Shown: in pieces, positions 1 to 1,791 of the stretch | Numbering within the stretch: position 1 is the stretch's first letter | How the letters are laid out: each line of letters begins with the position of its first letter | Source of the DNA: Myxococcales bacterium FL481 | GTDB lineage: Bacteria; Myxococcota_A; Polyangia; Nannocystales; Nannocystaceae | NCBI GenBank assembly: GCA_006508105.1 | Contig: QKPP01000061.1 | Coordinates: 1-43,968, forward strand | Direction: 5' to 3' | DNA: 43,968 nt | Position numbers and translations under genes: made by a program | The notes under the pieces: model-generated | Told to the model about the DNA's origin: nothing | What the model saw: the letters and a program-made list of their open reading frames with translations, nothing else | The model's database searches: none

Positions 1-1791
<1,791 letters not shown>

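Follow-up and report, generated by a model that had tools for sequence, protein, structure and literature searches.

A probable selenocysteine-containing redoxin joined to a beta-propeller in Myxococcales bacterium FL481

A redoxin gene at the contig edge contains a single in-frame TGA

We analysed a 43,968-nucleotide stretch of Myxococcales bacterium FL481 (contig QKPP01000061.1, positions 1 to 43,968), referred to here as the window. When its first frame is read from base 1, the sole stop before the TAA at 1789-1791 is the TGA at 1450-1452. The table-11 ORF list divides the gene at this TGA and holds a downstream ORF that starts at TTG 1456. The features of the locus are:

1..1791, plus strand: putative selenoprotein gene, 596 residues, one in-frame TGA, ending at the TAA 1789-1791; the contig edge cuts the 5' end
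1..117, plus strand: low-complexity sequence rich in Asp, at the contig edge, seen in the translation; the signal peptide would lie outside the window
157..1024, plus strand: beta-propeller region (Pfam LVIVD at about 574-657, repeated strands in the AlphaFold2 model, Foldseek propellers; approximate limits)
1048..1324, plus strand: Ig-like (ASH/HYDIN-like) beta domain (weak Pfam match in the window, E 0.065, and strands in the model; approximate limits)
1342..1788, plus strand: AhpC-TSA/Redoxin domain with thioredoxin fold and UPLC active site (Pfam, NCBIfam, PDB, AlphaFold2, Foldseek)
1450..1452, plus strand: in-frame TGA, by interpretation a Sec codon and first residue of UxxC (frame, homologues, hairpin, selA co-occurrence)
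1462..1480, plus strand: SECIS-like hairpin, 7-bp stem GCCGCGG/CCGCGGC, loop AGUUG starting 16 nt past the UGA

Asp-rich (GAC/GAT) repeats at contig ends open three putative Sec-redoxin genes of this genome, the one in the window (1-117), L027 and L028. This suggests that the assembly is interrupted at such repeats, so that the N-termini of these genes go unseen.

The next ORFs with Pfam matches encode a zinc-type dehydrogenase and a LysR regulator (other strand) and an EamA transporter; these neighbours suggest no operon partner for the redoxin gene. Elsewhere in the window, at 7609-9665, a gene for a single-domain globin precedes one for a ParA-like protein that matches DUF4388, and 27277-33974 (minus strand) carries genes for ATP synthase beta, alpha and gamma, in an order reminiscent of an N-ATPase operon. 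We also listed 77 frames of the window with an in-frame TGA preceded by at least 90 codons and followed by at least 60. Besides the TGA at 1450, the only UxxC among them, at TGA 12092 (U-S-R-C), is out of frame within an amidohydrolase ORF (11373-12686) and is probably a chance occurrence.

The redoxin domain spans the TGA and follows a beta-propeller

In the read-through translation, AhpC-TSA (PF00578) matches residues 448-578 (E 1.1e-17; 64.6 bits against a cut-off of 26) and Redoxin (PF08534) also scores above its cut-off (E 1.2e-12; 48.2 against 26.6 bits). Both matches cross the TGA, in agreement with the first-pass annotation, which had proposed a single redoxin spanning it. That annotation also placed the TGA at the first active-site Cys. 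The motif is indeed UPLC, with the TGA replacing the first Cys of CxxC and Cys at the same position in homologues. The 112 codons that follow (111 in the annotation) complete the AhpC-TSA/Redoxin domain, as had been claimed. With both Pfam domains over cut-off and UPLC at the active site, the protein has the features of the UxxC Prx-like/redoxin group.

The AlphaFold2 model of the protein has a mean pLDDT of 91.9 and a pTM of 0.86. Among the 50 Foldseek matches listed, WD40 proteins and BamB fit the front and ResA fits the back (TM 0.85 and 0.88 by target length). The first-pass annotation described the redoxin, to which the present analysis adds the propeller and the Ig-like part ahead of it. 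Across 31 aligned TGA members, the window included, Pfam finds AhpC-TSA in all 31, LVIVD in 23 and a HYDIN-type Ig domain in 13. None of these members varies at the Sec position, C444 or E447, and P522 is almost as constant; thioredoxin folds have a cis-proline at this place.

More than 400 open residues precede Sec in 41 of 54 TGA places. Among these 41 long members, counting the window, where this region is missing, a rough pattern finds a lipoprotein-like signal in 19 (shuffled expectation 1.8); a stricter lipobox filter gave 7 of 41, and even the looser pattern misses some that are convincing by eye. The signal region of the closest relative (L076), whose 601-residue frame has a TGA at the same place, fits the lipoprotein pattern. 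Since the contig edge removes the 5' end in the window, export is inferred from such relatives.

The TGA recurs at the same residue in related genomes

We next consider the residue found at the aligned position in homologues. Among 124 merged places it is TGA in 54, Cys in 67 and Thr in 3, but the Sec-to-Cys ratio of this set is biased, since fetching mainly took places whose TGA was known from the listings; to offset this, 13 long-frame places without TGA were fetched in addition, and all have Cys. Scoring U as C biases this alignment towards Cys. Of the 54 TGA places, 53 continue with xxC and one with xxU. Cys homologues encode the position by TGC or TGT, and three Prx-type matches (L035, L067, L073) have Thr there with Cys second. 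Thus, homologues carry Sec or Cys where the annotation's reading called for them, apart from the Thr of the Prx-type matches. In-frame UGA, homology on both sides of it and an aligned Cys in homologues are all found here, as expected of a bacterial selenoprotein.

The source genome holds 11 matches, five with TGA: the window, C53 (UPVC), C42 (UGAC), C117 (UGPC) and C45 (UPTU). The last, L028 (G000:C45, minus strand 1578-1567), has two TGAs in one motif, possibly a double-Sec active site. A sample of the phylum comprised 188 genomes. At E 1e-8 the domain has matches in 65 of them, and in 21 of the 188 (own included) a listed match contains a single TGA; as a figure for the spread of the architecture, the latter counts all TGA redoxins. 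Searching 59 relatives with the full-length protein gave matches in 20, of which 11 (own included) have TGA. Among the phylum matches listed, 30 carry exactly one stop, which is always TGA, and the best 16 all do. No TAA or TAG lies inside the matches listed for the own genome, the phylum sample and the full-length search. This absence rests on the genome and phylum listings because the set of 124 dropped alignments with an internal TAA/TAG or no residue at the Sec position (identical contexts were merged). The closest homologue, in G003, has the motif UPAC and 54% identity over the domain. In a named collection of 46 loci, two have TGA at the position, from Marinimicrobia (L030) and Verrucomicrobia (L075). 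A run of 2243 bases is identical between the Cys locus L043, recorded for a Polyangiaceae bacterium, and G094, a genome in the family of the window; a Myxococcota origin is accordingly likely.

A sequencing or assembly error could have made the TGA from a Cys codon, and a single base change from TGC or TGT would be enough. Such an error is unlikely because the same TGA recurs at this residue in 29 other genomes of the phylum and in the two named genomes, which would require it to arise repeatedly in independent assemblies. It would also leave the hairpin described below unexplained, and we regard it as exceedingly improbable.

A hairpin following the UGA is conserved in TGA genes

PMC1088965 describes bacterial SECIS elements as hairpins that directly follow the UGA and have G in their small apical loop. 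The window has such a hairpin just after its UGA, with G in the small loop. A fold of 54 nt from 1447 forms it at -24.5 kcal/mol (z -2.28), and 5 of 200 shuffles are equally good. For the window gene alone, about 1.3% of 20000 synonymous recodings yield the full 7-bp stem.

Judged from the aligned genes, the family-wide signal is far stronger than that of the window gene alone. All six core pairs are complete in 42 of 53 TGA genes (11 lack the full six), against a mean of 1.1 and a maximum of 7 in 1000 synonymous resamplings; the pairing rule was chosen after viewing the folds, and related rows are not independent. Six pairs form in 0 of 66 Cys genes, many of which are other redoxin subfamilies or phyla that differ in more than Sec, and in none of the 13 additional long-frame places that lack TGA, every one of which has Cys. 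A hairpin with G early in the loop occurs in 49 of 53 TGA genes (shuffle expectation 24.2) versus 23 of 66 Cys genes (28.4), and a GU loop 13-26 nt from the codon in 43 of 53 (13.0) versus 6 of 66 (7.8). The stem has the register of the window in 33 TGA genes, is shifted by one base in 11 (mostly with loop GGUC) and fits neither in 9. Within the 33, the pair at positions 13-23 changes on both sides (TA 19, AT 7, CG 3, GC 2, TG 1, mismatch 1). Folding z averages -1.14 in TGA genes and +0.11 in Cys genes; a Mann-Whitney test gives P = 2e-8, indicative only because rows are related. These counts omit L028 (UPTU), L071 (too short) and the three Thr rows. The SECIS-like hairpin claimed in the first-pass annotation is therefore conserved relative to both synonymous resamplings and Cys controls. 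An Rfam scan of the window gave no family above its gathering score; Rfam SECIS_1 matched no control genome either and is uninformative on bacterial SECIS.

These data bear on whether the TGA is a true stop, in which case the locus would be a pseudogene or a pair of adjacent genes, the second re-initiated at TTG 1456. A frame from this TTG does exist, and TGA also terminates frames here, for example in the C53 paralogue (L129). Against this stand the 54 distinct places that repeat TGA at the same residue, the conservation of the domain after the TGA in the G003 homologue and a hairpin retained beyond protein constraint; moreover, translation restarting at the TTG would yield a protein without the first part of the redoxin fold. 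A true stop is very unlikely.

The genome encodes selenocysteine machinery

A check of the genome for sel genes, which the annotation had called for, found selA, selB, selD and tRNA-Sec. SelA (416 bits) and selB (309 bits) lie on the same contig, both over curated cut-offs. SelD (333.7 bits, above its curated cut-off; L018, G000:C138:16690-17625) has its own in-frame TGA and presumably resembles Sec-containing SelD, a known form. The tRNA-Sec scores 67.9 bits, above cut-off, with anticodon tca. Because the assembly is a draft (6.45 Mb, 93.35% complete) with 322 contigs and 5.25% contamination, the sel genes and the window could stem from different organisms.

We also asked how often TGA redoxins and selA occur together. 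SelA passes its cut-off in 27 of the 29 genomes that have a TGA redoxin and in 11 of 29 whose matches were TGA-free, the latter hand-picked from 44. The two TGA-redoxin genomes with no selA match are G190 (71% complete) and G146 (95% complete). For each of the TGA loci L030 and L075, the genome has a selB match above cut-off; for L043 and L068, labelled Cys from the fetched redoxin alone, it has none.

The UGA might also be decoded as another amino acid, by Trp insertion or near-cognate read-through. The members lacking TGA carry Cys or Thr at this position and never Trp, and Sec machinery and a SECIS-like element are both present; this option has only a slight probability. Taken with the recurrence of the TGA, these results suggest that UGA 1450-1452 is almost certainly read as selenocysteine.

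Sec redoxins group together and occur in several copies

In a quick tree of 49 Sec and 43 other rows, the Sec label switches 4 times, compared with a shuffle mean of 31. The Sec group also takes in Cys rows L115 and L116 (where a propeller is judged from length alone) and the fragment L120, and L092 is adjacent to it; support for these placements is modest. Cys rows within the Sec group would fit a change from Sec to Cys. Some genomes have multiple TGA members, such as G201 with four places and G203 with three. Close pairs of Sec-redoxin genes share one contig at L137 (G170:C13), G203:C278 (L107, L124) and G190:C252 (L125, L109).

DISCUSSION

We consider it highly probable that the gene encodes a selenoprotein with hairpin-directed Sec, probably an exported propeller protein with a ResA/TlpA-like redoxin. 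SelB and tRNA-Sec would decode UGA 1450-1452 as selenocysteine, directed by the hairpin at 1462-1480. The product would probably be an exported lipoprotein in which an Ig-like spacer lies between a beta-propeller and a C-terminal domain of thioredoxin fold. UPLC may pair an attacking selenolate with a resolving Cys. The most likely activity is thiol-disulfide exchange within the envelope, where Sec would act as the nucleophile, and the propeller may serve as a docking or substrate-binding part.

The redoxin could instead be a peroxidase (peroxiredoxin or GPx-like), still a selenoprotein. AhpC-TSA is its top Pfam family, GSHPx matches 5 of the 31 aligned TGA members (Pfam) and the weak sequence matches in the PDB include GPX4 chains. 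Peroxiredoxins, however, have Thr or Ser first and the peroxidatic Cys second. The Prx-type homologues, with Thr at the Sec position and Cys second, argue against a peroxidase, and the window redoxin departs from the peroxiredoxin pattern, with Sec at the first position. Among NCBIfam families ResA also scores highest, and it ranks high among single-domain fold matches; we regard a peroxidase as a less likely but real alternative. The redoxin scores 54 bits with the ResA family NF002854, far under the curated cut-off of 170. The domain is most likely a cell-envelope ResA/TlpA-like thiol-disulfide oxidoreductase.

There is roughly an even chance that the protein represents a large unnamed envelope family, in which a beta-propeller lipoprotein bears a Sec-redoxin and some genomes of the phylum hold several copies. 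If so, envelope selenocysteine chemistry would be a substantial and overlooked trait of the phylum. The split in the ORF list leaves the propeller half without its enzyme, and recognising the family would correct such annotations. The gene would also offer a case of selenium use, probably in the cell envelope, in which Sec and Cys redoxins of long proteins can be compared between related genomes.

ResA/TlpA proteins are envelope redoxins and, to our knowledge, have no propeller. ResA/TlpA oxidoreductases (NF002854; PDB 1su9, 2h1b) have the fold and the CxxC place in common with the window redoxin, but with Cys at the active site where the window redoxin would have Sec. The ResA-like WAxxUGC selenoprotein (NF041054) is likewise a ResA-like redoxin with Sec; its motif is UGC in contrast to UxxC, and the window scores 17 bits against its cut-off of 300. 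UxxC Prx-like thiol:disulfide oxidoreductase and Redoxin selenoproteins (PF00578, PF08534) are catalogued in Table 1 of PMC13188914, Prx-like 1 and 3 selenoproteins are described in PMC2398784, and Prx-like UXXC proteins were catalogued as early as 2005 (PMC13188914, PMC9312934, PMC2398784, PMC1088965; accessible portions). These share their Pfam domains and the UxxC Sec with the window protein (PMC13188914, PMC2398784), but the accessible portions mention no propeller/Ig-like fusion among them. The Prx-like 2 and Prx-like 3 fusions of the GOS study join a Sec-redoxin to further domains, as in the window protein, but by the available description their partners are Secretin_N-like, Unknown_2 and Unknown_3 (PMC2398784). 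An LVIVD-type beta-propeller with an Ig-like domain and a C-terminal Sec-redoxin was not found described in the open-access literature searched. The redoxin domain thus appears to be of a known kind, and its propeller-joined form appears to be little described and to recur in related bacteria.
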